Source of the DNA: Cylindrobasidium torrendii FP15055 ss-10
Lineage: Eukaryota > Basidiomycota > Agaricomycetes > Agaricales > Physalacriaceae
Direction of reading: 5' to 3'
Assembly: GCA_000934385.1 (NCBI GenBank)
Contig: KN880472.1
Span: 62,001-126,000, forward strand
DNA: 64,000 nt
This document shows, in pieces, positions 6,966 through 28,730 of the stretch. The notes beneath the pieces are model-generated. The model did no database searches and was not told the DNA's origin. It saw only the letters and a program-made list of their open reading frames with translations. Positions within the stretch are counted from its first letter, which is position 1; the number at the start of each line of letters is the position of its first letter. Made by a program: the position numbers and the translations under genes.

Positions 6966-7892
6966 ATGGCCAAGTCGACGACTACCAGCACTTCGACACA
7001 TATCCCACGCCCCCCGAACAAGTGGATCTTGTTCCGGTGTGATTTTACATCCCGTGGGGGGAGCCCGACTGAGGCCCAAGCGGCATGGAAAGCTCTAACG
7101 CACGAGGAGAAATCACACTGGCAACGTCTTGCCGCACTCGAGGCCGACGAACACGCCCAACGACACCCAGGCTATAGGTACTCGCCCAACAAGGAGAGGA
7201 AGAGCACCAAGGCGAAGAAGGAGACAAAGTCCACCAACGTTGTTGACTCTGCTTTGGTGCATTTGGTGCATTTGAATCCAATCACGGAGCGCGATAGGTC
7301 TCGGAGGCGAGACCACAAAGGGCACACATCGGCGTCTGCCCCATACGCTAGGCCTCCGACGCGCTCTCGTGCCAGCACCTCTACATCGTCTCCATCATCC
7401 AGTTTTGACAGCTCGCCACTTCCGAGCATTCCAAGCCTATACATCGACCCCGGGCTCTTGTCTTCGCCATCGTCCAGCTCTTCGGTTGATATCGACTGGA
7501 CACAGTACGCCTCTCAGAGCCAATCTCGTCCAGATTTCTCTGCGAGCCATGGCTATTCTGCTCTATCATTTCCCAGCAGTGTACATTTCGGCGCTGATTT
7601 TGTCTCTGAGTCCTTCGACGCTGCCAACACGGATCCCGTCTCGGCTTTCGACTATAGTCCGTCTGCGTTCACATCCATCCCACTCGATAGCGAACTCTAC
7701 TCTACAGCAGAGCAGCCACTCTATTCCGGCCTCGACAGCGGCTACCCATCGTTCGGTGTCGACTTGAGCTTTGGGATGTATCCATCCTGGTCATACGGCG
7801 ACACCACCTTCGACAACGTTTTGGGCTTAAGTTCCACTTTCCCAAGCCCCGATTCGTGGTCCAACGCCGGCTTCTACGACTTGCCGTTCTGA
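6966..7892 (+). CDS. MATA-type HMG-box protein 1 (array member HMG1)
   Basis: A 308-residue putative DNA-binding protein without introns. I take the start at 6966 (MAKSTTTSTSTHI) because the paralogue HMG2 begins at the matching place (MGKSSTTSTATHI) and because the frame upstream has no ATG. The HMG box covers roughly residues 14-75: IPRPPNKWILFR, then WKALTHEEKSHWQRLAALEA and HPGYRYSP. This is the MATA-HMG subtype seen in fungal mating-type and Ste11-like factors. The middle of the box is about ten residues shorter than usual, and the normal ISK-type helix-2 start is missing. The rest is Ser/Pro/Tyr-rich low complexity with no domain. It faces GlyR1 tail to tail. Role unknown; a nuclear regulator is inferred. 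Confidence 0.82.
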   Translation: MAKSTTTSTSTHIPRPPNKWILFRCDFTSRGGSPTEAQAAWKALTHEEKSHWQRLAALEADEHAQRHPGYRYSPNKERKSTKAKKETKSTNVVDSALVHLVHLNPITERDRSRRRDHKGHTSASAPYARPPTRSRASTSTSSPSSSFDSSPLPSIPSLYIDPGLLSSPSSSSSVDIDWTQYASQSQSRPDFSASHGYSALSFPSSVHFGADFVSESFDAANTDPVSAFDYSPSAFTSIPLDSELYSTAEQPLYSGLDSGYPSFGVDLSFGMYPSWSYGDTTFDNVLGLSSTFPSPDSWSNAGFYDLPF

Positions 7893-8353
7893 AACCCTTA
7901 CTCACACATTAGTTTATAGTTATTTACATGTTAGCTTACATTGGTACTTACTCGCTAGTTTACAGTTACTGATATCGTTACATACATCCCTCCCCCACCC
8001 CACCCCTCCTCACCCGCCCACGCACTGCATGCCCCGTGTTTCCTCGCTCTTGGACTATTCACTCATCAGTATTGGTATCGTTGCCTGCTGTGCCAAATCG
8101 CCAGCTTAGAATTGTTGTCTTGTCTTATCTCTATCCGGTTGCACATAGTTAAATCTTGGTTTTTTCGTAGTCGTCTTTGTACTTGTAGCACGGAGCTCAA
8201 TGAAGTTGTTGTGCATGTTTTCTCTAATTGGTTACTGTGCGCGCGCGCTGGGCAATCACTGAGAGTATGCACGAAATTTGTTCTTGGTAATAAATACAAT
8301 ATTAATGGCATCTGCGATTCAAAGGCAAGACCTATTTAGTATTCTAGGGTGAA
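7893..8353. other. Convergent 3' region between HMG1 and GlyR1
   Basis: A 460-bp spacer that must contain both 3' ends. It is T-rich near 7900-8200 and includes a pyrimidine tract (CCCTCCCCCACCCCACCCC) near 7988. No gene seen. Confidence 0.4.
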
Positions 8354-9627
8354 TTATCCACAGCCGTCGCCTCCGCCTCCGCCACCTCCGCCATCGCCGC
8401 CACCTCCTCCGCCGTAATCTCCCTCACTGTATCCACCGCCTCCACCTCCACTGTCATGACCATGACCATGGCCATGGCCATGGCCGCCCGAGCCTGCTCC
8501 GCATCCTTCACTGCTATAATAGCTAGTAGAGACCGCCAGGATGCCTACGGTGTCCCAGGTATTCTGCCTGGTGGACCAAAACTCGAATTCGCCAGGCGTC
8601 TTCGATGCCCCGAACGCCTTACTCCTCCAAAAGCGGCTCGGGGTCCTGGCTGTTGTTGGAGGGTACCATTCCTTAGGCGGTTGGCGCGGAAGGCCATACA
8701 GGATGGCCGCGTCGAAAAATCGCAGGGTGAATGTCCATGAAAATAGTGAGTGTTCGTATTCCTTCGGAAATCGTCAGACTATGCAACCTGCAGCGGCCAT
8801 GTGAGAATAAGCGTACACCAGTCTGTCGACCAAGTCTGTAGTAAGCGTCGATGTAAGCTTCCTTGAAGGTGTGTTTCCTAGCCCATTTAGCGCCTGGCCA
8901 ACGGGCGGTTGATATCTGTCGCACGACGGTTACAAATCTACAATTCCAAGGATCAATTCTATGATATCGAAGTAATGAGGGGAGAACCGTACGTTTCGAT
9001 GCTGTTCCTCAGCACATTGGCTGGATCCTCACGATGATTTCGTGTCAAGTCCCACGTCTTCCACAGCACCATTGCCCGCACGAGTGCCGTCCATTCTCTC
9101 GGTTCCATCCACTTCTCCCTTGTCAAGTACGTCGAGTCAGGCAGAATACACTTGTCTGGATTTCCTTCCGTGACCTGATGCACCTCAAGCTTGAACTGTT
9201 CGGTGAGGACATCAATGGCATGATTCCAACGCTACCATCATAGTCAGCTAAATGATCATTTTGGCCTTCTTTGTAGCGCCTTACCCAGTAAGAGTGAGAT
9301 AGTCTCAGAAGGCTGGCCTTGTATTCCGTCTCAATCAGAATGTACTTCTCTTCCAATGTCGAAGCCTCGTCAACGCGATGCATTTCTGTTGCAACACTAG
9401 ACATGGACAAAGAAATCAGCCATAGCTAAGACAGACGTACGCGCGACCTGCCTTTGCACAGCCTGCATGAGTCCATCGTCTTCATCGATGCTCTTGCCCC
9501 GGAGAATATGCCTCAATGGGCCATTCGGATGGAGCGCGTAGATGGCGGTGACCCATTGCCGTCTGTCTTCGTTCACTTGCCACGGTGGCTGCGAAATCGC
9601 GCTGAGAGTTTCGATATCTAGCGACAT
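8354..9627 (-). CDS. GlyR1: unrecognised five-exon protein with His/Gly-rich tail
   Basis: I do not recognise this family. Exon 1 reads MSLDIETLSAISQPPWQVNE and RRQWVTAIYALHPNGPLR. Exon 2 ends near YWV. Exon 3 has CILPDSTYLTREKWM, WTALVRAMVLWKTWDLTRNH. Exon 4 has VVRQISTARWPGAKWAR. Exon 5 has DAAILYGLPRQPP, TPSRFW and GEFEFWSTRQNTW. It ends in a tail with GGHGHGHGHGHDSGGGGG and long Gly runs. Intron 1 uses a GC donor (9451-9450); GT alternatives break the frame. The last intron must use the acceptor CCGAAG near 8748, giving a 55-nt intron with a CTGAC branch site, since the nearer AG would lead into a stop. The upstream ATG near 9700 is not in a conserved phase between copies, so I chose MSLD as start. 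About 350 residues, no signal peptide or membrane span evident. Confidence 0.8.
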
Positions 9628-9992
9628 GGTAGTTTGAAGGAAACCAGTATAGCCTCACCAAGGCACTTACAGCCGAAACGCAAACAAGAGTCAAGCAGCT
9701 AGACGCCATCGCCTGCTGTCGCCTCTGAGGCAGTACGCGACTGACAGACCCTCGATCGCCTCAACGGCAGGTTCCGGCTTGAACACGATCACGTTGCTCA
9801 CGAATGAGCGGCACATATCCTAGCGCTGACTCTGATCCAACCTTTGACTTTTTGCCGGCATGGAACTGTCAATTTATCTCATGCGGTTGTGCATATCACA
9901 CATTCTTATCCTGATTTTCTTCCGGTACAGAAAAAACACAATCGCATTTGCTGTTTGCAGGAAAGATTTCTTTGGTGCGCTAATGGGTCCAA
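9628..9992. promoter_or_regulatory. GlyR1 promoter with near-palindrome, joined to an HMG scrap and the GlyR2 3' side
   Basis: The element AACACGATCACGTT at 9782-9795 stands 155 bp before the GlyR1 start. Directly after it, from about 9803, begins a scrap alignable to the coding region of HMG2 (ATGAGCGGCACATAT; HMG2 about 14628). Most of the HMG gene that once lay here has been deleted. A probable 5'-UTR intron (GTAAGTGCC on minus near 9671) precedes the start codon. Confidence 0.6.
9803..9850 (+). pseudogene. HMG scrap A
   Basis: A short remnant of the serine-rich part of an HMG-array gene. It matches HMG2 around 14628-14665 (MSGTYSNAGF region) and the relic at 17409. It has no HMG box and no long frame. 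Confidence 0.55.
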
Positions 9993-11280
9993 TTATCCAC
10001 CGCCATCACACCCGCCGCCGCCGCCATCACAGCCACCGCCGCCGCCGCCACTACCACCACCACCACCATCGCCACCGAGAAATGATATGCCAGTATATCC
10101 TTTGCGTTGTTTGCTTCCACTTCTATTACCATCGTCGTTGTCACGAGCATACACTGCTCTGGGATCCTCGCCGCCATAGAAGTCTGCGGAGACCGCAAAG
10201 ACGCCTCCGCCGGTGGACCATGTATTCTTTCTGGTCCGCCAAAAATCGAATTCGCCCGGCGACTTTGATGCGCCGTACGCCGATCCCATCCAAAACCGAC
10301 TTGGGGTCCGGGTAGCTATCGGCGGAGCGTACCATGCTTTACGGGGCTGGTGAGGAAGGCCATATAAGTTGGCCGCGTCTTCAAAACGCTGGGTGGACAT
10401 CCAAGTTGATTGCGTGTGCTCGAAAGCCTTCAAAAATCGTGAGAACTTGTCTGCCCCAGCTGTATGAGAATGAACATACATCAGTTTCTCGACCTAGCTT
10501 GCGAAAAGCGTCGAGGTAGACTCGCTTATAGGTGCGCAACCTAGCCCATCTAGGGCCCGGCCAAATGGCGGTCGATATCTGTCGCACGACAGAGAAAAAC
10601 CTACGGCTATAAGCAAGGGTCACTTCCATAGGATGAAGAGAAATTCTTTACGTTTCGATGCATTCTCTCAGCGCATTAGCGGCATCCTCGCAATGGTTTC
10701 GCGTCAAGTCCCATGTCTTCCACTGCACCATCGCTCGTACAAACGCAGCCCATTCTCTAGGCTTCATCCACTTCTCCCTGGTCAAGTACGTCGTGTCAGG
10801 CAGGATACACTTATTCGCATCTCGTTCTGTAAGCTTGTGAACCTTGTACTTGAGCTTTCCGGCGAGACCAGCAATGGCAAAATTCCAGCCCTACCATCAT
10901 ATCAGTCAGCTGCAATGTTTTGTCTTTCTTCAAAGCGCCACACCTGACAAGTGCGAACGAGATGGGAAGTGTCGACTTTGTATTCCGTCTCAATTAGGAT
11001 GTACTTATCCTCGACCGTGGGAGCCTCGTCAACGCGCAGCATCGCAGCCGCCACACTACAAAATGGAGTCAGTCGCAGCTAAGACGGACAAACGGGCGCT
11101 CTACCTTTGCACAGCTCGCAGGAGTCCATCATCCTCATCGAGATACTTGCCACGTAGAACGTCTCTCAGTGCGCCATTTGGATGCAGTGCGTGGATGGCG
11201 GTGACCCATTGGCGTCTGTCTTCGTTCACTTGCCATGGTGGTTGCGAAATCGTGCTCAGCGCCTCGATATCTAGTGACAT
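9993..11280 (-). CDS. GlyR2: paralogue of the unrecognised family, Gly/Cys/Asp tail
   Basis: Same five exons as GlyR1: MSLDIEALSTISQPPWQVNE, a second exon with EDKYILIETEYK, then ANKCILPDTTYLTREKWM and WKTWDLTRNHCEDAANALRE. It continues with FFSVVRQISTAIWPGPRWAR and the last exon from RFEDAANLYGLPHQPRKAWY through RTPSRFWMGSAYGASKSPGE to GEFDFWRTRKNTW. Intron 1 has a normal GT donor. The tail differs from GlyR1: it has an acidic, Asn/Arg-rich insert (YARDNDDGNRSG) before a C-terminal run of Gly broken by CDGGGGG repeats. All exons are open and all splice sites present, so I regard it as functional. Role unknown. Confidence 0.8.
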
Positions 11281-11735
11281 GGTGGTTCGAGGGAAAGCCT
11301 TGTATTCACACCAATTCACTCGTAGCATAAGCAGAATCAAGAGCCAGGCGATTAGGCGCCATCGCCAGCTGTTGCCTGAGGCAGCACGCCACTGACAGCC
11401 CCACGTGTGCTTCGCTTGCCGAAACGGCAGGTTCCGGCACAAACGCGATCACGTTGCTCACAATTGAACGGCACTCATCCTATTCCTAGCGCTGGCTCTG
11501 ATCCGAAATTCGACTTGTTGCCAGCTTACGGCCGTAAATTCTTATTTTATTGTGTCAAAGTTGCGGATACAAGGCCTGCATTGTGGACTGTTTGTTATTA
11601 GAAAGCGGCGCGCATGAATTGAGGAATCATTAATTATTAACAAGAAGAATTCGGAGTTGGGTTCCCAATTACAAAAATGTGATACTTTGGTGTACATTTG
11701 CAGGTAATGCTCCTTCGGTACTCTGATGCATCCAA
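11281..11735. promoter_or_regulatory. GlyR2 promoter: palindrome, E-box, then HMG scrap B
   Basis: AACGCGATCACGTT at 11442-11455 lies 162 bp before the GlyR2 start, with a CACGTG E-box at 11402-11407. As in the GlyR1 spacer, HMG-derived sequence starts right after GTTGCTCAC, which points to a shared deletion junction. Confidence 0.6.
11456..11530 (+). pseudogene. HMG scrap B
   Basis: A remnant of an HMG-array gene, close to scrap A and to the relic near 17409 (AACGGCACTCATCC, then GCGCTGGCTCTGATCC and TTCGACTTGTTG). No HMG box remains. Confidence 0.5.
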
Positions 11736-13026
11736 TCAACCACAGCTTCCACCTCCATCAACGCAACCACCGTCGCCGCTGCCGCCGCCGCCATCGCAAT
11801 GCACTCCTCCTCCGCCACCGCCATCACCACCAACGCCGCCGAGGAATTCAGTTGCGTTGATCATAAATTCCACTATTGCACTTCTTCTTCCGTCAACATC
11901 GTCATTGAATCTACGCTCCTTACCGCCATAATGAGTTGCAGAGACCTTTGAGGTAGACCGTGTTTCATTCATTTTCGACCAAGCATCCCAATTGGCCGGT
12001 GGCCTCGATGCGCCGTACTCATCGCTCCTCCGAGGCCGGTTCAAAGTCTGGGCAGCTATGACCGGAGGGCACCATGGTTCGGAAGGTTGCCGAGGAAGGC
12101 CGTAAGAGGCGACCGCGTCTTCAAATCGCAGAGTGGACATCCAAGCGGGTTGCGCGCGATTGAATTCCTTCAGCAGTCGTGAGAATCTGTCTCAGCTGTG
12201 CAAGAATGAACATACATCGGTTTCTCGACCTAGCTTGCGGAAAGCGTCAAGGTAAGCTGCCTTGTGAGTGTGCATCCTAGCCCATGTAGGGCCCGGCCAA
12301 CGGGCTGTAAGTATCTGTCGCACGACAGAGGCATACCTACGGCTAATGAGAGTCACTTCACAGGATGAAGGAAAATTCCATACGCTTCGATGCATTCTCT
12401 CAGCGCATTAGCGGCATCCTGGCAATGATTTCGCGTCAAGTCCCATGTCTTCCACTGCACCATTGCTCGTACGAATGCCCCCCAGTCTCTACGATTCATC
12501 CACTTCTCCCTGGCAAGGTACGTCTTGTCAGGCAGTATACACTTGCTCCCATTTTGTAGTGTAGCCTTGTAAAATGTAGCCATGTCAGCCTTGTACTTGA
12601 GCTTGTCGGTGAGACCAGTAATGGCGAGATTCCAGCCCTACCGTCATATTAGTCAGCCGCATTGTTTCGTCTTTTGTCGAAGCGCCATACCTGATAAGTG
12701 CGAAAGAGATGAAGAGCGCTTGCTTTGTATTCAGTCTCGATTATGATATACTTCTCTTCGATTGTTGGAGCCTCGTTAACGCGCAGCATCACTGCCGCCA
12801 CGCTACAAATGAAGTCAGTCGTAGCTAAGACGGACGTATGCGCGGCCTACCTCTGCACAGCCTGCATGAGTCCATCGTCTTCATCGATACTCTTGCCTTG
12901 CAGAACATGCCTCGATGGGCCATTTGGGTGCAGTGCGTAGATGGCGGTAACCCACTGCCGTCTGTCCTCGTTGACTTGCCATGGTGGCTGCGAAATTGCG
13001 CTAAGAGTTTCGATATCTAGCGACAT
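11736..13026 (-). CDS. GlyR3: paralogue of the unrecognised family, Gly/Asp/Cys tail
   Basis: Five-exon copy with the same splice plan and a GT donor in intron 1. Landmarks are SISQPPWQVNE-type exon 1 with HVLQGKSIDEDDGLMQAVQR, exon 3 with KCILPDKTYLAREKWMNRRD and WKTWDLTRNHCQDAANALRE, and exon 4 with YASVVRQILTARWPGPTWAR. Exon 5 has RFEDAVASYGLPRQPSEPW. Exon 3 carries a few extra residues before the ILPD motif. The tail reads NDDVDGRRSAIVEFM and then Gly runs with VHCDGGGGSGDGG. The stop codon differs from other copies (TGA at 11736-11738 instead of the shared GGA TAA). It is head to head with HMG2. Function unknown. Confidence 0.8.
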
Positions 13027-13718
13027 GGTGGTTCAAGAGAGAGTCATGGATTCCCGCCAACTCACTCAGAAGCAGAAGCAGAATCAAGAGTCAGACGATT
13101 AGGCGCCATCGCTTGGGGCAGCACGCCACTGACAGCAGCCCCACGTGTGCTTCGATCGCCGAACATTCCGGCTTCAACGTGATCGCGTTGCTCTTGCTGA
13201 CCTCATCTTTTTGCTTTCATTTCGTACGCTCATGCAGCTGCCAAATCCATCCAAGAACATGGACTTCGAAACTTTAGCTGGAATTAACTTTTATTCGATG
13301 AGAACAGTGCCTATACCTGTCTCCTCGTCCCGCAAACGTCCTTGCTCGCTCGACCGTCACAACGCCATATTTTCCTTCTGACAATCTTTCCAATGGATTG
13401 CACCGACCTCTGGCATTGACTGACACCGTGCAATCTCTCTCTTTTTGCTATCCTTCTAGTTGCTGGTCTCGGGAGCGCTGTGGTAGCTAGGCAGACAATG
13501 ATTCCCCTCCGACTTGCGGAGCGCATTGTGATCCGGGAATTAATTTCCCGTCAACTCTTTGTTAACGAGTTGGCACCGATGAGGGTCGTTGTCAGACCCG
13601 TCTGTGGCGGTGCCCTATTCAGTTGTTATTCCTTATAACATGGCATCGATTTGGGTTCCTATTATCTGCCCTCCATAGCTCGCGATCACCACAACCAACT
13701 TGAAATCCGCCCACGGCA
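13027..13718. promoter_or_regulatory. Bidirectional region GlyR3 / HMG2 with palindrome, E-box and TATA box
   Basis: For GlyR3: CACGTG at 13142-13147 and AACGTGATCGCGTT at 13176-13189, which is the exact reverse complement of the form in the GlyR2, GlyR4 and GlyR5 promoters. For HMG2: a TTATAA box at 13633-13638, 81 bp before its start, inside a block shared with the HMG1 promoter. Both genes may be controlled from this 690-bp stretch. Confidence 0.6.
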
Positions 13719-15023
13719 ATGGGCAAATCATCTACTACCAGCACTGCGACACACATTCGACGCCCTCCAAACAAATGGATCCTTTTCCGCAAGGATTTTT
13801 TTGCTCGTGGGGGAACCCCCGCTGACGCCCCGAAGGTGTGGAATGCTCTCACGGAGAAGGAGAAGGCTCCATGGACGCTTCTTGCAGCACGTTTGGCCAA
13901 CGAGCATGCCCGCCGGTATCCCGATTTCCAATACAGACCCAAGAAGGAGAAGGACACCTCCGACGAGTCTTGTCTCCATCATGAACCAACGTTTACGGAG
14001 CACAATCTGCCTTTGAATGGTACTCGGGAGCGGGGACGCACCGGACACACATCAGCATCTGCTCCGTATGCTAGGCCACCGACGCGTCCTCGTGCTATCA
14101 CACCATCCTCATCCTCGCCTTTGCCTTCTCCGTACATCCAAAACCTCTCTGTCGGTCCACATCGTCCTCTGCCATCATCCAGCTCTTCGGCTGAACTGAA
14201 CTGGATGCACTACGGCGCTCAGTCCCAAACACCCTCTGGATCTTTTGCGAACGCCTGCCGGTACTATCCCGATTTCAAATACAGGCCCAAGAAGGAGAAG
14301 GACACCTCCGACGAGTCTTTGCTCCATCATGAACCAACATTCAAGGAGCACAGTTTGCCTTTGAATGGTACTCGGGAGCGGGGACGCACTGGACGCACAT
14401 CAGCATCTGCTCCGTACGCTAGGCCACCGACGCGCCCTCGTGCGATCACACCGCCCTCGTCCTCGTCTTTGCCATCTCCTTATGTCCAAGACCTCTCTGT
14501 TGATCAACAGCATCCTCTTCCATCATCGAGCTCTTCGGCCGAATTGAACTGGATGCACTACGGCGCTCAGACCCAAACACCCTCCGGATCTCTTGCGAAC
14601 TATGGCTCCGCTGGTCACTCGCAAATGAGCGGCACATATTCCAACGCTGGCTTTAATCTGGTCTCTGGGTCGTTCGATACCTCCACCAACACGTACAACC
14701 CCTTCTCAGACTTTGACTATAGTTCATCTGGACACACTCAACTCAATGGCGAACCACACTATCCTATGGGCGAGCAGTCGCTTTACTATCCCTGCCTCGA
14801 CAACGGCTATCCACCATCCCAAAGGGACTTGGGTTATGGCTCGCAGCCATCCTCGTCATATGGTGGTGTTTCCAATGACCCTTACGCCTTGAATGCCACA
14901 TTCACAAACCACGCCTCGTTCCCCGACGCATCCTCGTCATATGATGGTACTTTCTATCCTCATGCTGGCTTGAACATCACAACAAATCCCAGCTCGTTGC
15001 CCGACACCAGTCGCTTTGACTGA
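13719..15023 (+). CDS. MATA-type HMG-box protein 2 with internal 116-residue duplication (HMG2)
   Basis: An intronless gene for a 434-residue protein. It starts MGKSSTTSTATHIRRPPNKW. The HMG box (about residues 13-75) has the same shortened middle as HMG1: WILFRKDFFARGGTPADAPK runs almost directly into VWNALTEKEKAPWTLLAARL, then RRYPDFQYRPKKEKD. The stretch beginning PDFQYRPKKEKDTSDES and ending near GAQSQTPSGSFAN is repeated once in frame from 14268 (PDFKYRPKKEKDTSDES), so the tail end of the box occurs twice. The remaining C-terminal part is Ser/Tyr/Asn/Pro-rich, as in many fungal transcription activation regions. It is convergent with GlyR4 and divergent from GlyR3. A nuclear regulator is inferred; targets are unknown. 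Confidence 0.82.
   Translation: MGKSSTTSTATHIRRPPNKWILFRKDFFARGGTPADAPKVWNALTEKEKAPWTLLAARLANEHARRYPDFQYRPKKEKDTSDESCLHHEPTFTEHNLPLNGTRERGRTGHTSASAPYARPPTRPRAITPSSSSPLPSPYIQNLSVGPHRPLPSSSSSAELNWMHYGAQSQTPSGSFANACRYYPDFKYRPKKEKDTSDESLLHHEPTFKEHSLPLNGTRERGRTGRTSASAPYARPPTRPRAITPPSSSSLPSPYVQDLSVDQQHPLPSSSSSAELNWMHYGAQTQTPSGSLANYGSAGHSQMSGTYSNAGFNLVSGSFDTSTNTYNPFSDFDYSSSGHTQLNGEPHYPMGEQSLYYPCLDNGYPPSQRDLGYGSQPSSSYGGVSNDPYALNATFTNHASFPDASSSYDGTFYPHAGLNITTNPSSLPDTSRFD
13920..14615 (+). repeat. Direct in-frame duplication (2 x 348 bp) inside HMG2
   Basis: Two adjacent 348-bp units begin at the PDF codons 13920 and 14268. They keep frame and differ by scattered substitutions, so the duplication is not recent. 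Confidence 0.85.
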
Positions 15024-15340
15024 CGCTTCGCTACCTCGTCTTAAACATTTGACGTATCTGTTCATTGACTGTACTTATCATATGTTTCTTTGCCTTCGAC
15101 GTTTTCACTTGTACCATCAGTATCGGTGCCGCTTTCTGCTGCGCCAAAACACTAGATTATCATACTTGTTTGCTTATTTACATTTGGTTGTACTACACTT
15201 TACGTCTCTAACGCATCAAGCTCAATGAAGATAACGTGCATCTTCTTCTCTCTGGCTACAAGGATGATTCACGTAGAACATCCACGACTTTCATCCTCAG
15301 AATAAATACAGTGGCATTAGGTAAGACTCGTTTGTTATGA
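15024..15340. other. Convergent 3' spacer HMG2 / GlyR4
   Basis: A 317-bp T-rich spacer that must hold both transcript ends. Nothing else seen. Confidence 0.4.
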
Positions 15341-16623
15341 TTATCCACAGCCCCCACCTCCGCCGTCTCCTCCGCCGCCGCCACCTCCTCCACTGTCGCC
15401 GCCACCTCCTCCACTGTCGCCGCCACCACCCCCGCCGCCGTAATCCCCGCCGCTGTATCCTCCACCTCCACCTCCACTGTCATGCCCATGACCCCAACCT
15501 GCTCCGCATCCGTCGCCGCCATAATAACTTGCAGAAATCGCAAAGATGCCTGCGGTGTCCCATGTATTGTTTCTAGTCGACCAGAAGTCAAATTCGCCGG
15601 GCGTACTCGACGCGCCAAACGCTGTGCTCTTCCAGAAGCGGCTCGGAATCCTGGCAGTTCTCGGAGGGTACCATGTTCCAGGCGGATATCTTGGGAGACC
15701 ATGAAGCACAGCCGCGTCGTCGTATCGATAGGTGGATGCCCATAATGCCTTCGTGTACACGAAGTCCTTTAGAAATAATCAGAATGCGACGTGGATGTGG
15801 GAGAAAGAACAGACAGAAGTCTGGTTATCGAGGCTTCGGAGGGTGTTAATGTAGGCTCGCTTGTGGGTGTGATTCCTAGCCCATCTCGAGCTTCGCCAAC
15901 GAGTAGTGCGAATCTGTTGCACGACAGCGGTAAACCTACAATGTTGACGGTCACTTCCACGGTTTCGGAAAAATGAAGGAATAGATACATACGCTTCGAT
16001 GTACTTTCTCAGCGCATTGGCGTCACCCTCACGGTGATTTCGCGTCAATTCCCACGTCTTCCAGTACATCGTCGCTCGGACGAAGGTTGTCCATTCCGAA
16101 GCGGTCATCCACTTCTCCCTGGTCAAGTACGTTGAGTCAGGTAGAATGGACTTGCTCGGATATCCCTGTGTAGCCTCGTGTGCTTCATTCTTGAGCCGGT
16201 CGGTGATGACCTTGACAGCACGATCCCAGTTCTACCATGGTTAGCTGGATTTTCTTTCTCTTTCAGTGTAACACCGTACCAAATACGAGTCGGATAGACG
16301 CAAAGCGCTGGCTTTATACTCCGTCTCAATCAGAATGTACTTCTCTTCAACTGTTGGAGCCTCGCTGATGCGCTGCATAACTGCCGCGACGCTACATACA
16401 TGAGCAAATCAGCCACTGTAGCACAGACAGACGAACGCGCGGCTTACCTCTGCACAGCCTGCCAAATTCCAGCGTCTTCATCGATGCTTTTGCCTTGCAG
16501 AGCGCGCCTCAATGGGCCATTTGGATGCAATGCGTAAATTGCAGTGACCCATTGTCGTCTGTCCGCGTTCACTTGCCACGGTGGTTGCGAAATCCCCTTC
16601 AAATCCTCGATATCTAGCGACAT
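15341..16623 (-). CDS. GlyR4: paralogue of the unrecognised family, longest Gly-rich tail
   Basis: Five exons as in the other copies. Exon 1 reads MSLDIEDLKGISQPPWQVNA; exon 3 has SILPDSTYLTREKWMTASEW and YWKTWELTRNHREGDANALR; exon 4 has VVQQIRTTRWRSSRWARNHT. Exon 5 starts DFVYTKALWASTYRYDDAAV and goes through GLPRYPPGTWYPPRTARIPS and GEFDFWSTRNNTW. The tail is GCGAGWGHGHDSGGGGGGY followed by repeated GGGGGDS units down to the shared GGA TAA end. It is the closest relative of GlyR1 in the tail. Note that the Cys of CILPD is Ser here, so that cysteine is not universal. Splice sites are canonical. Function unknown. Confidence 0.8.
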
Positions 16624-17150
16624 GGTGGTTCAAGACAAAGCAATGAAGCTCCGCCGGGGCACTCACAGTTGAAACGCAATCAAGAGTCAGGCAATTGGAC
16701 GCCATCGCCTGTCGTCTCTGAGGCAGTACGCGACTGACAGCTACACGTGCTCCTCGATCGCCTCAACGGCACATCCCGGCTCGAACGCGATCACGTTGCT
16801 CTTGCTGACGTGACTTCATGTTCTAACTTCGTTCCGAACGCGCACAAGGTTACCCAGTGAGATTCTCGTGGCAGAGCCACTCTTGGCTATTGTATCTTCC
16901 CTATGTTGTGACAGCCACTCGGGCTTTATTGTCTTTGTGGCTACATGTCAGCCGCGCTTTTTCATCTGACCCAGAATACCCAAGGTTTAGCGCGCTAGAA
17001 GTGCCAAACCTGTGTCTCTCGCCACAATTCTCGCACCTGGGTACTCGCTAGGTAGTCCGAAGGCGCGGTATGTTCTCTTCGACTATTTTTGATGCCGGGA
17101 ACAGCTTTGGAGAACCTTACGCTAACCTTTCTGTTGCATTTTGAACGTTA
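16624..17150. promoter_or_regulatory. GlyR4 promoter: E-box and near-palindrome
   Basis: CACGTG at 16744-16749 and AACGCGATCACGTT at 16784-16797, 161 bp before the GlyR4 start. Sequence from about 16800 to 17150 shows weak likeness to the region before HMG3 (for example the CTGTGTCTCTCGCC block near 17010 and 19370), so it is probably an old HMG promoter. Confidence 0.6.
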
Positions 17151-17622
17151 ACGGAGCACCATAGATGTTTCAAATGATACTCGAAGCGGAACAAAAGAGG
17201 AACAACTGCCCCATACGCTCAGCCACCAACGCGGCGCTCTCATACTAGCACCTCATCATCAACCCCGTCTTCTCTGTACGTTTCAAGCCCCTTCATTGGC
17301 CCAGGCTATTCTTCGCCATCATTGAGCCCTTTGGCGGGACTCGACTGAAGGCAAGACGACACTCAATTTCAATCTTTTGGCGAACTGTAGGTTTGCTGGT
17401 CATTTGCAAGTGAGCGGCACATATCGAGTCAGCGCTGGCTCCGATGCAACCTTTGACTTGTTTGTTGACATCAACAATTGGACTTCTGCTCTAAGTCGTC
17501 TGAATTCTACCAATATCATCGTACACAATGGCGAGCCCTCCACCTCCACAACCGCAGTCGCTTTGTCCCGGCCTTGACAGAGGCTACCCCTCATTCGACG
17601 TCGACTTGGCTACGGGTTGGAC
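17151..17622 (+). pseudogene. HMG relic (box lost)
   Basis: Decayed copy of an HMG-array gene. It aligns with HMG2 from the ACGGAGCAC block (TEH codons, HMG2 about 13996) through APYAQPPTR, SSLYVSSP and a NGEPSTSTT segment to a final PSFD-like block. The frame is broken by stop codons and indels, and the HMG box itself is absent. Frame pieces of 60-70 codons that remain open are fragments of the serine-rich region. Confidence 0.8.
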
Positions 17623-17694
17623 CTCAGTTCAAAATACAATGCCATTTACTGTACATTCATAGGCAAAACTTCTTTGGGATTCTGGTGGGTTCAA

Positions 17695-18952
17695 TTATCC
17701 AGCCATACCTATCACTTCTATCACCATCGTCGCCAACTTCTCCGCCACCTCCCAGCCACTAGTCTTAGATCCTCCAACATGGTTGTAGCCTTGAGCATAC
17801 CTACTACTCGAGCGTGCTTTGCACACTTTACCGCCATAATAATTTGCAGGGACCGTTAAAACGCCTTCGGTGTCCCAAGTATTTTGTCTGGTGGACCAGA
17901 AATCAAATTCTCCAGGTCTCCTCGATGCGGCATACGCTATGCCTCTCCAGAACCGGCTCGGAGTCCGTGCAGCTCCCGACGGAGGAGGGTACCATGCTTT
18001 ACACGGTTGGCGGGGAAGGCCATATAAGACGGCCGCGTCTTCAAATCGCAGGGTGGATATCCACGTAGATTGCGTATGCTCGAATTCCTCCAGGAAGCGT
18101 GAGAACTCGTCTGTCCCAACCGTGTGAGAATGGACATACCTCAGACTCTTGACCTAGTTTGCGGAAAGCGTCGAGGTAAGCTCCCTTGTAGGTCTGCATT
18201 CTGGCCCAACTAGGGCCCGGCCAACGAGCGGTCGATATCTGTCGCACGACAGAGACAAACCTACGGCTATAAGCAAGGGTCACTTCCAAAGGATATGAAG
18301 AGAAATTCTTTACGTTTCGATGCATTCTCTTAACGCATTAGCGGAATCCTCGCAATGATTTCGTGTCAAGTCCCATGTCTTCCACTGCACCATCGCTCGT
18401 ACGAATGCCGCCCATTCTCTAGGCTTCATCCACTTCTCCCTGATCAGGTACGTCGAGTCGGGTAGGATACACTTATTCGCGTTTCGCTCAGTAGCCCGGT
18501 GCACTTTATACTTCATGTTGTCGGCGAGGGTAGTAATGGCAAGATTCCAGCTCTACCATCGTATTCGTCAGCCGCATTGTTTTGCCTTTCTTCAAAGGAC
18601 AGACTTACCAGATAAGTGCGAAAAAGATGAAGAGCGCTGGCTTTGTATTCCGTCTCCATCAGGAGGACATACTTGTCTTCGATGGTCGGAGCCTCATTAA
18701 TGCGCTGCATTATTGCTGCGACACTACACAGACAAAGAAGTCAGCCGTAGCTAAGACGGACACACGCGCGGCCTGCCTTTGCACAGCCTGCATAAGGCTA
18801 TCATCTTCATCGAGGCTCTTGCCTCGCAGAACGTGCCTCAATGGGCCATTTGGGTGCAATGCGTATATGGCGGTGACCCATTGTCGCCTGTCCTCGTTGA
18901 CTTGCCACGGTGGCTGGGGAATCGTCCTCAGAGCCTCGAAATCTAGCGACAT
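17695..18952 (-). CDS. GlyR5: paralogue of the unrecognised family with the Gly-rich tail lost
   Basis: Five exons with the usual landmarks: MSLDFEALRTIPQPPWQVNE, exon 2 with EDKYVLLMETEYKASALH, exon 3 with KCILPDSTYLIREKWMKPRE and WKTWDLTRNHCEDSANALRE. Exon 4 has VVRQISTARWPGPSWAR and exon 5 has RFEDAAVLYGLPRQPCKAWY, GEFDFWSTRQNTW. Intron 1 again has a GC donor (18776-18775), forced by the frame. After NYYGGKVCKARSSSRYAQGY the protein ends with a short ordinary tail (SGWEVAEKLATMVIEVIGMA). The neighbouring frame would give Gly/Asp-rich codons, so a one-base shift seems to have replaced the old tail, yet the ancestral GGA TAA end is still used. Function unknown. Head to head with HMG3. Confidence 0.77.
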
Positions 18953-19575
18953 GGTGGCTCGTGGGAAGGTGTTGTATTCCCATCCATTCACTCACAGCCC
19001 CAATACAAGGCAATTAGGCGCCATCCTCTGGTTCTGGGGCAACGGTGGCAGAGTGGCCGGCATGGGAATATTGGCGACTGACGGCCCCACGGTTCGATCG
19101 CCTCAGCGGCAGATTGCGGCTTGAACGCGATCACGTTACTTTTGTGTTCTTGCTCTCATCTCGGATGTACACAAGACTGTGAAGCCGTCGTAGCTTTTCA
19201 GGAATAGACCGCGGGACTCAGCAAGGGAATGCCTTGCTATTTTATTTCGCTGGCCGTCCCGGATTGCGACAGGCCACCCAGATTTTATTGATTTTGTGGC
19301 GACATTGTGGCCACGCTTACTCGTCTAACCCGGAAATTCAAGGCGGTGCGCAAGAAGTGCTAAAGCTGTGTCTCTCGCCCCAACCCTCACCTGGGTACTC
19401 GCTACGAAGCCTTGGGGCGTGGGATGTTCTCTTCGAAGGAATTTTCTGTGCCACTGATACCGGGAACAGCTGTGTAGAGGCTTGCGTTGCCCATCCGAGG
19501 CAGTGCGTTGCCCACAAATAAAAGGGAAACCAGGCGCGTATTCTCCTTCCCACATCTCCTTGTCTTCCCGCTGTC
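18953..19575. promoter_or_regulatory. Bidirectional region GlyR5 / HMG3 with near-palindrome
   Basis: AACGCGATCACGTT at 19124-19137, 172 bp before the GlyR5 start and 439 bp before the HMG3 start. An AATAAAAG box near 19516 could serve as TATA element for HMG3. Confidence 0.55.
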
Positions 19576-20514
19576 ATGACGCCCACTACCAACGCTCGCC
19601 GCAATCCACACAAGACCGCCATGGCTCGCAATAAGCACACAGCTCCCAAGAAAAACTCCCATCGCAAAAAGCGCCCGAGTGGCTACATCACACGCCCCCC
19701 CAATTGTTTTATTCTCTTTCGCCAACATTTCGCGGAAAATCATATAAAACCGCAAGACCCAAAGGCCAAAGCCCCGAGACAGGCAACCATCTCCAAAGAA
19801 GCAAGCGTACGTTGGGGAAACTTATCTTTGGAAGAGAAGTCGGTTTGGCGAGAAAAGCAGGACGAGGTTGCTGCGGCTCACAAACTCGAGTTTCCTAACT
19901 ATAAGTTTACGCCGGCCAAAAAGCGCTCTCGCGTGGACGATGCGGACGATTCTGACTTCGAGGTCGAGACAACTGCACGGCGTACTAGAAAGCGTGCGCG
20001 CTATTCACCCCGGCCCTCGACCTCTGAGCCCACACCGATGGTGTCGTTCTCATCCGAAGGAGGATCCTCATCACCACCATCACAGTGGGCCCCTCCACAG
20101 TTCCCTTCTCCGTCAACCTCGACAGGAAACTTGCCGGAATACGACTCGGACTCTTCGCCTTCAATTTCTGGCCGACATCTCCAACCGACATCGTGTCTTA
20201 CAGATCCCTGCAGCATAATGGGCTTGGGCGACATGGAAGATCATCTTCTTCCGTATCGTCCGCTTCTAACCAACGCCAACTTCGAGTATCTCGACTCGAG
20301 CTCATCATACTCGAATGCGGATGCGCACGACTTCGACAACTTCTTGTCTGTGAATCATGAGCCCCATCCCACGTCCTGTCCGACCTATCTGTCGTCTGAG
20401 CCCTTCGGCCTCTTCGACGGGATGGAGTCATCCCATACCATTACTGACAACTCAGAGGGATGGAACGAGTATGTCCTGCCAGTGCCTGACCTTTTGTACG
20501 ACTTCGAAGTATAG
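19576..20514 (+). CDS. MATA-type HMG-box protein 3, full-length box (HMG3)
   Basis: A 312-residue intronless protein. After a basic N-terminus (HRKKRPSG) comes a complete HMG box at about residues 36-108: YITRPPNCFILFRQHF, then ATISKEASVRWGNLSLEEKS and WREKQDEVAAAHKLEFPNYK. Unlike HMG1 and HMG2 it keeps the ISK helix-2 region, so it best represents the ancestral box. A bipartite basic segment (KKRSRVDD and RRTRKRARYSP) follows and looks like a nuclear localisation signal. The remainder is acidic and Ser/Pro-rich with no further domain. It is divergent from GlyR5. Binding to a WTTGTT-type site would be expected for this box family; the actual target is unknown. Confidence 0.88.
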   Translation: MTPTTNARRNPHKTAMARNKHTAPKKNSHRKKRPSGYITRPPNCFILFRQHFAENHIKPQDPKAKAPRQATISKEASVRWGNLSLEEKSVWREKQDEVAAAHKLEFPNYKFTPAKKRSRVDDADDSDFEVETTARRTRKRARYSPRPSTSEPTPMVSFSSEGGSSSPPSQWAPPQFPSPSTSTGNLPEYDSDSSPSISGRHLQPTSCLTDPCSIMGLGDMEDHLLPYRPLLTNANFEYLDSSSSYSNADAHDFDNFLSVNHEPHPTSCPTYLSSEPFGLFDGMESSHTITDNSEGWNEYVLPVPDLLYDFEV

Positions 20515-25740: not shown

Positions 25741-28509
25741 CTAATCGTCCTCCTCGTTCCGACCGAATCCTCCCACAGGCTCGTACGTCGCCTCCGTTGT
25801 ATCTCTCCTCATGACCCATGTCACACCGAGGAAGAAGAGCACGATGAGGATGATGCCGAGGACACCTACAACCGCTGGCGCGCCATACTGACGCCACGGA
25901 CCTGGATAATACGGCTCAAGAACTTGGTCGATCTGTATCACCCCACCCGTCCCTCCTCCAGTTGTCGACCTCCCCCACGCCATAACAGTCGCCGCATGAG
26001 TCTTCCCATTCGTACCCCTCGCACCCTTGATGCCCACGACATAACTCCCTGGCGCAGACTCAACCTCCTTGAAAACCACATCCCCATAATCCTCTTGAAA
26101 GTCACGCGTCAGCACAGTCGCGTATGTCGCCGAATCATCCATATGCAGCGGCCTGTTGTTGTTCAACGCCTCTGCCACCACCAAAGACGGCGGGACCATC
26201 GGGATAAGATGCTGCACGACCAGACTCTCGAGCCTCCGCGTGTCTTGGTAAAGCTCCGTGAGGTTGTAATCCTTGAACGCGTCGTCTGTGGGACACAACA
26301 GCGTCCAGCCAGCACCCGTCATCCCCGCCTGGTCCCACCGAGATCCCTCAGGCGGCGCCGTTCCATTCAGCACCCACTCAAACCCAGCCTTGGACACCAA
26401 TGTCCCCATCGTACTCCCCTTAGCCGCCTTGACGAGCTTCCCAGCGGTAAGGTCAACCGACCGAGGAATCAGCAAGTCCGATAGTTCGTGTATCACCCCA
26501 GTCTCCGTCAGTGTATTCTTCGGATACAACTCTGTCCTCATCCCTGCCCAGCCCCCACTCGCACTGAGAAACACCGTCCCATTCGCGTCTTTCTCCAGCG
26601 TCAAATCCGAGCCTTCCAGTGTCGAATACGAATGGCTCGAGCCGTTGACAAGCTCCTCGGCGTACTGCACGCTGTCAAGCGAATGATGCAGCAAGACCTT
26701 CTCCAGGTCGGATTTGGACGACGCTGCGAGTAGGTGGGCGCTGACGAGCAGTCCCAGGCGCTGGAAGGCCTCGTTATGAGGAATAAGCAACGACGTTCGA
26801 GGTGTCTTCTTGATCGTCTTTGCTACGGAAGTTGACGAGACAGCCGCAAGGAAGGATGACAGCTCCAAAGACGGCAGCGCAGCCTGCAGAGCATCCGTCG
26901 GTGGAACCAGCGCCTTCGAAATGAAGTAAATCAAGGTGTTGTTGACCTCGACTATACTTCCAGTGAGTCCAACATTCGATTACATATTGCGAATGACATA
27001 CCAGGCTCGCCAATGACACTTGCGCCCGCAAACCGAATCTTCTTCGTGTCAGACTCGACTTCCAGGACTTGACGGCCACCATCCAATCCAGGCTCCTGCA
27101 ATGCAGTCTCCAACAACATCCCATCCTGCAGCTTCTTCGGCGTCCAGCGACCAGGAAGGAAATGATATTGCAGCATCTTCTTCAGCTCCTCACTACCAGG
27201 CTCAGGCAGTGTCGGCTCGTCAAAGAAGGTAAAAATATCATCTTGAGGCGCCAAAATGGTATACTTGGCTTCGGTGTCGTTGACGAGCGAAGTCAAGTTG
27301 GTTGAATGAATGAGGGATACAAAGGATGTGCAGTTCAACGCAAGCAGGTACTTCTCCGGTGTGATTTGCAATGCACCAGGCGGTATCATGAGGGAGTTCA
27401 CGATATGCAGTACACCATTCGACGCGTAAATGTCTGCTTCTACAAGGTCCGCTTGGCCAACCATGGTCTTGTCTGGCGACACAACGATTTCCAAGTTTTG
27501 GCCGTCAATGGTGGTCACTATACATTGTTGAAGAATGGTTTGGGGAAGTGGGCAGGAAACGCACGATTGAGAGCTGGGTGGAACGCGTCTGACCAAGAAA
27601 CTCCTTCAGACACCGCATGCATATTAAGGATCTTGGCGAGGTCATCGCTGGCAAATTCGCTCTCCAGGTAGGTCCGCTCCAACTTGTCCAGTGAATTCCA
27701 CGCCTCGTTTGTTGGCAGGAACAGAGTCAGCGCAGACGTTGAGTTGAGGGCTTTGTGAATGTCGGGAGTGAGCAGAGAGTTGAAGTAGGACAGGGAAGGA
27801 GTTTGCGAGAGAACCGTAGCTGTAAGATTGTCAGCGGTGAAACAGCTTCAACTGCGCGCGCGCACGCACCCAAATCTGGTGGAGGCTCCAGCATCTTGTT
27901 AATCCCGAACAATGCCCCATTGCCTGCGTCAACCTTGCCCTTCGTAACCTGCACACCACCCTTCCCATGCGCATCGACCCCCACATACAGCTTCTCCTTG
28001 TGCGGCACCAGCCTCAACCTCTGCGGCTCCCCGCCCAATGACCCGCCAGGTATGGGAATCCATGGAGGATATGGCGGCGGTTCGTGTGTCGGGCTGTCTA
28101 GCGGAATCCGCGGGAAATGTAATGTCTTGTGGACCTGCAAGTCGCTGGCTTCCTCTGGGAAAGCGTTGACGGTATAATTCAGAAGATGGTAGAACAGCTG
28201 TTGCCGTAGTTGCTCCTGCACGTTGTCTGCCAGAGTTGCCGATCCATCGTCCAGGATACTTCGCCAGAAGGCATGTTGCTCTATGGCTTCATTCGTCGGT
28301 GCGAAGAATGTGCTGCCGTTCAATCGATTGAGTGTGGGGATGAGCCGTGTGCGCTGTAGGAGCCGCAGTAATAGCTCGTAGTCGGGGTCCTTGTTGAGCT
28401 CGCTGACGAGTGTGCTTGCCAACGTCGACGGTCCAGATAATGGGGTTTGCGAGCACAGGATGTTCCCGAATAATAAAGAAGTAGAAACGAGAATGCGCCA
28501 GGGACGCAT
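25741..28509 (-). CDS. Cell-surface fasciclin (FAS1) protein with five FAS1 domains and a C-terminal membrane anchor
   Basis: Start at 28509 (MRPWRILVSTSLLFGNILCS), a clear signal peptide; the longer frame upstream lacks one. Five FAS1-like domains follow in order. Landmarks are TFFAPTNEAIEQH, TLFLPTNEAWNSL, YTILAPQDDIFTFF, SLLIPHNEAFQRLGL and TLLCPTDDAFKDYNL, each followed by the LxxHxL-type second half (for example VLLHHSLDSVQYAEEL). Many NxT/S sites fit an exported glycoprotein. Near the C-terminus is one membrane span (AVVGVLGIILIVLFFLGVTW) and a short cytosolic tail (MRRDTTEATYEPVGG). FAS1 proteins act in adhesion or, in yeasts, vacuolar functions; a vacuolar membrane place is also possible. 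Three or more small introns (near 27840, 27530 and 26970). Confidence 0.87.
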
Positions 28510-28730
28510 GGTGGATGTAGTGATGGCAAGAGGCAGAGGTGCGGTTCCCCTTACGCGCAGCTTGAGCATGCCCTGACGTCAGGCCTGTTAATTGCGGCAA
28601 CGGCCGACGGACTGCGCCACACTGTGGATGCCTACCAACACAAGTAACAACTTTTCCTCAGGTAGTACTTTATACCATCAAATCGAGTGCAAACGAGCAA
28701 GCAGTAAATTGAGCAATAATTTTACAACAT

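Follow-up and report, generated by a model that had tools for sequence, protein, structure and literature searches.

Judged from its sequence, a 64,000-nucleotide stretch of the Cylindrobasidium torrendii genome carries a real, orderly and constrained tandem array built around an orphan gene family, and the mechanism by which this array grew is most likely an ordinary one. The stretch, hereafter the window, comprises bases 62001-126000 of contig C42, in a genome assembly of 29,298,553 bases and 494 contigs. Between positions 6966 and 20514 the gene order is H1> <G1 r1 <G2 r2 <G3 H2> <G4 r4 <G5 H3> (Table 1), where G denotes the family called GlyR in the first-pass annotation of this DNA, H the HMG-derived genes and r the pieces of H genes. 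The strict alternation described in that annotation is borne out: the five G genes, all of them minus-strand, are interleaved one by one with plus-strand HMG genes or HMG-like pieces, six in all. We give a probability of about 0.65 to the reading as a whole, namely that a tail-to-tail unit (H> <G) was multiplied in tandem by unequal crossing-over and gene conversion, that H was lost in one branch of the units, and that H3 is a separate gene.

Table 1. Genes and gene pieces of the array, in window coordinates.
Feature	Position	Strand	Description
H1	6966..7892	+	Intact and without introns; the 308-aa product has its shortened HMG box close to the N-terminus and a C-terminal part rich in Ser/Tyr
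G1	8354..9627	-	351 aa in five exons, tail of Gly and His-Gly; GC-AG in the modelled intron 1
r1	about 9797..9853	+	Piece of an H gene, ~57 bp, fused to the G1 upstream region
G2	9993..11280	-	360 aa in five exons, Cys in the Gly tail
r2	about 11457..11519	+	Piece of an H gene, ~63 bp, fusion point as in r1
G3	11736..13026	-	364 aa in five exons; exon 5 under weak constraint
H2	13719..15023	+	Intact and HMG-derived; 434 aa, with the HMG box shortened and an internal duplication in frame
G4	15341..16623	-	357 aa in five exons; the Gly tail is long
r4	17203..17608	+	Remnant of a broken H gene that lacks the HMG box part; each of the three plus-strand frames contains stops
G5	17695..18952	-	347 aa in five exons, without the Gly tail, which was lost; GC-AG in the modelled intron 1
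H3	19576..20514	+	312 aa, full-length HMG box, other subfamily; adjoins the array on the right

A single five-exon model suits all five G copies, with introns 1-4 of 47-57 bases and an exon 5 that begins in phase 0, and once spliced all five frames are open, as had been claimed. The model uses a GC donor for intron 1 of G1 and G5, where an alternative GT donor is possible 11 bases downstream, and a GT donor in G2, G3 and G4. The ~300 N-terminal residues align throughout, the bodies of the other four copies being 58-66% identical to that of G4. The tails consist of Gly and His-Gly repeats in G1, Gly with a short His-Gly stretch in G4, and Gly with Cys in G2 and G3; the Gly-rich tail attributed to the whole family is thus present in G1-G4, but G5 ends without one. 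At the gene's other end, an upstream ATG (ATGGCG) lies ~85 bp before the G start and is kept in the alignment of all five upstream regions; it may be a feature of the 5' leader or part of a promoter block.

The degree of divergence also bears on whether the array exists at all. Beyond the fragmentation of the assembly into 494 contigs, we see nothing in favour of an assembly artefact or a set of chance neighbours, and we regard either as extremely improbable. A collapse or a false join would yield near-identical copies, whereas each G copy stands at the above distance from G4 and has its own spacers and remnants. Moreover, at least 22 matches to G were found in the C. torrendii genome at E <= 1, of which 21 lie in the array and one elsewhere (C21, E 0.77); taken with the 58-66% identity, this shows that the layout is not due to chance.

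Pfam returned no family at E <= 5 for any of the five members or for full-length G4, no weighty match was found in NCBIfam (best E 0.17) or among PDB sequences (best E 0.31), and no match was confirmed in the bacterial and viral collections; judged by these collections, G is an undescribed family. A bacterial or viral origin was rejected in a narrow test, in which 16 and 33 stretches fitted one of two peptide patterns and none was confirmed. We also rejected a relationship with GRDP-like proteins (PF07173), in which, as in G, a globular body is followed by a tail rich in Gly and in part containing Cys; G1-G4, though not G5, share the Gly-rich tail, but the body has no match in any of the five members, and a G profile misses both GRDP-like frames of contig C73 in the same genome. 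These two frames (C73:46500-56400) lie in opposite orientation, with Gly-Cys-rich frames nearby.

All ten pairwise comparisons of G (297-301 codons) give dN/dS values of 0.21-0.46, with upper bootstrap limits of 0.29-0.74. The G genes are under purifying selection, which supports the earlier interpretation in this respect. When exons were compared separately, with the G1 sequence ended at 8358 and so without its last two residues, exon 5 gave 0.52-0.82 in the four pairs with G3 and 0.18-0.31 in the other six. A structure prediction for G exon 5, made from five sequences, had a mean pLDDT of 41.2, too poor for a structure search. We propose that G is an intracellular-looking protein with a constrained 300-residue body and a variable Gly-rich tail; from composition alone, we would guess at a dosage-tolerant cytoplasmic or nuclear protein, and, as a further guess, the tail is probably a flexible interaction region.

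Which unit, then, was duplicated? The first-pass annotation had paired the genes head to head, as G1/r1, G2/r2, G3/H2, G4/r4 and G5/H3, an arrangement that leaves H1 over. Tail to tail, the pairs are H1/G1, r1/G2, r2/G3, H2/G4 and r4/G5, and the gene left over is H3, which is also the odd one by sequence. The unrooted G tree separates {G2,G3,G5} from {G1,G4} with support of 99.4/100 and joins G2 to G3 with 95.7/96, and intact H genes stand tail to tail with G1 and G4, dead ones with G2, G3 and G5. Because partner state coincides in this way with the split in the G tree, a single change is enough, and the dead H can be one loss that was copied with G; by chance, such agreement is expected in 1 of 10 placements of the two intact labels. 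The tail-to-tail unit (H> <G) thus fits both the G tree and the H3 sequence better than head-to-head pairs do.

The spacers and the ages of the copies are consistent with this. The H1-G1 and H2-G4 units match each other from the H gene across the 3' spacer into the G gene, with H1 and H2 74.5% identical over the 106 bp before the start and 70% over 114 bp of 3' spacer, and the r1-G2, r2-G3 and r4-G5 spacers partly align among themselves. The dS values are similar, at 0.87 for G1-G4 and at 1.09 (172 codons) and 1.21 (225 codons) for H1-H2. The claimed co-duplication of two kinds of gene therefore stands for at least one event (H1-G1, H2-G4), but does not extend to H3, which is not a co-duplicated copy. 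Against a simple tail-to-tail history, the G4-r4 spacer has a 228-bp block (16906-17121 versus 19264-19486, 72% identity) in common with the G5-H3 spacer; head-side sequence and the H3-side promoter were therefore also moved in one exchange or more.

The H pieces tell of a loss that need not have been repeated. The match of r4 to H extends over about 400 bp, and the three plus-strand frames of 17203-17660 hold 2, 4 and 4 stops; sequences matching r1 and r2 are found inside r4 (82.7% and 74.6%). By sequence and alignment, r1 and r2 join a G upstream region at one common point, which is what a crossover between two G copies would leave behind if it duplicated a single H that had been broken before. 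With the dead H genes confined to one side of the G tree, this common fusion point makes a single loss followed by copying the simpler account. That half of the HMG copies are broken was a fair description insofar as r1, r2 and r4 are dead pieces; repeated losses are not required.

H3 stands apart. It exceeds the cut-off (25.4) of the Pfam HMG_box profile (PF00505) with 42.6 bits over profile positions 2-69 of 69, resembles H1 and H2 in the HMG box alone (44.7 and 43.1 bits) and groups apart from them. It is absent from the ten best listed matches of H1 other than H1 itself and H2, and comes last among the twelve matches listed for H2. Since the likeness is confined to the box and its rank among the listed matches is low, we take H3 to be a neighbour rather than a member of the array, and reject it as a co-duplicated copy.

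Tandem arrays enlarged by unequal crossing-over and gene conversion are a known class, and the C. torrendii locus shares with them its mosaic identity, its common breakpoints and its mixture of live and dead members, but differs in that each unit holds two unrelated genes. G1 and G3, for instance, are 86-90% identical in the first three 100-column windows of their alignment, 61-81% in most of the windows that follow and 52-63% at the far end, and intron 3 of G2 (10601-10651) is 98% identical to that of G5 (18261-18313) over 51 bp, with flanks that are less alike, which is likely to mark a gene-conversion tract. Unequal crossing-over together with gene conversion would explain both the mosaic identity and the common fusion point. 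We posit, from this one genome, that unequal crossing-over between G copies enlarged the array and that gene conversion partly homogenised them; H would have been broken in one branch of units, perhaps once, and the broken gene copied along with G to give r1-G2, r2-G3 and r4-G5. An H-type gene would thus have been carried along in an array of orphan genes, with H3 a separate gene at its right edge. Three further points count against this account: the agreement of partner state with the G tree would arise by chance in one case out of 10, gene conversion blurs the tree, and upstream identity within {G2,G3,G5} departs from it (G2-G5 70.5% and G3-G5 71.4%, versus 83.4% and 81.6% for the introns).

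The intact H genes are themselves unusual. H1 and H2 are related over their whole length (141 bits) and group together at 99% in the box tree, and H2 contains an in-frame duplication (13908-14252 versus 14253-14600, 89% identical). Both fall below the Pfam cut-off, with 19.7 and 21.4 bits, and cover the second half of the profile only (37-69 and 37-68); H2 exceeds the cut-off (27.4) only when the matches in its frame are summed. From the 34 HMG matches of the genome we extracted 26 frames and dropped four with incomplete boxes. Compared with the remaining 22 aligned boxes, those of H1 and H2 lack 7 residues or more in the helix-2 region, with 16 residues from the FR motif to the helix-2 Trp versus 23-37 in the 22, H3 included. 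Nevertheless, over stretches of 73-82 residues H1 matches further HMG proteins encoded in the genome at 41% identity (E about 1e-13), which points to common descent of H1/H2 and HMG-box genes. The HMG-box identity first given to the array genes accordingly holds for H3, with its full box, and for H1 and H2 by descent, though not by the Pfam cut-off. The structure predicted for H1 residues 1-100 from the single sequence had low confidence, with a mean pLDDT of 56.6, and was too poor for a structure search. The shortened box suggests that the H protein has probably lost the DNA binding of a standard HMG factor.

This bears on whether H and G work together. Between H1 and H2, dN/dS is 0.29 for the 84 codons of the box (upper bootstrap limit 0.52), 0.31 for the first 172 codons aligned (0.47) and 0.43 for the 225 C-terminal codons (0.61), and the low values in G and H imply that both were functional through much of their history. 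Could H regulate the adjacent G through a two-way promoter, the head-to-head pair being kept by selection? The strict alternation and the purifying selection on H1/H2 and all G genes would suit such an arrangement, as would the upstream sequences, whose 180 bp are more alike than the introns in 7/7 pairs with G1 or G4 (those between the two sides of the tree, and G1-G4). Within G2/G3/G5, however, this is so in 1/3 pairs, with upstream identity below intron identity in the other two, and the means (73.4% upstream, 70.0% in introns) and mixed pattern led us to reject a strongly conserved common promoter; the pattern may reflect conserved blocks or a mosaic history. Enrichment of HMG sites was likewise rejected, as five 230-bp regions upstream of G hold 3 HMG-like sites versus about 3.8 expected from the window. 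Moreover, G1, G2 and G4 are constrained without an intact H1-type gene at their head, G5 faces H3, of the other subfamily, and the H1/H2 boxes are shortened. We therefore consider such regulation quite unlikely. The regulator and effector pair of the first-pass annotation fares no better, given the shortened box, the lack of a site excess and the conservation of G2, G3 and G5 beside dead H genes; joint function of H and G is unsupported.

The remaining H copies could still act in trans on G. One might imagine a true two-gene module, in which H lacks normal HMG binding and is a partner or antagonist of G, for example in self-recognition between mates, the intact H genes serving all five G in trans; this we hold to be slightly more doubtful again. 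Conversely, selection might act on G alone, for copy number or diversity (perhaps in recognition or defence within the fungus), with H a passive, decaying neighbour. The five open G copies outnumber the two intact H genes of one type, and the tails are strongly unlike in composition on constrained bodies, which speak for this idea; yet H1 and H2 are still constrained, which is not expected from mere decay, and pairwise dN/dS reveals no hint that G is under positive selection, making it unlikely in our view.

If array growth by unequal crossing-over and gene conversion is the right reading, this one locus shows a two-gene unit still multiplying after one of its genes had died in part of the copies. 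In either case a protein family new to the collections searched, constrained and with a Gly-rich tail, is documented. A shortened HMG box that proved functional would be a form of the HMG fold that deserves testing; if it is not functional, the locus warns that genes duplicated together need not work together. No such pairing of HMG and G genes was found in the open-licence literature searched. PMC7490403 reports five HMG-box genes in a tandem row in Rhizophagus irregularis, and PMC4256170 treats HMG-box genes in general terms. The likeness to R. irregularis and fungal MATA-HMG families lies in mating-type-like HMG-box genes that are multiplied in the genome and set in a tandem row, whereas the C. 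torrendii row has copies of an unrelated orphan gene set between its HMG genes and pieces, and a shortened box in H1/H2; a mating role for the array is a candidate only. Elsewhere in the genome, C130:34000-42000 holds two HMG boxes ~3.3 kb apart on one strand, another possible HMG tandem. Within the window itself, two adjoining fasciclin-domain frames (25744-26979 and 27730-28578, minus strand) are perhaps one gene or a tandem pair.
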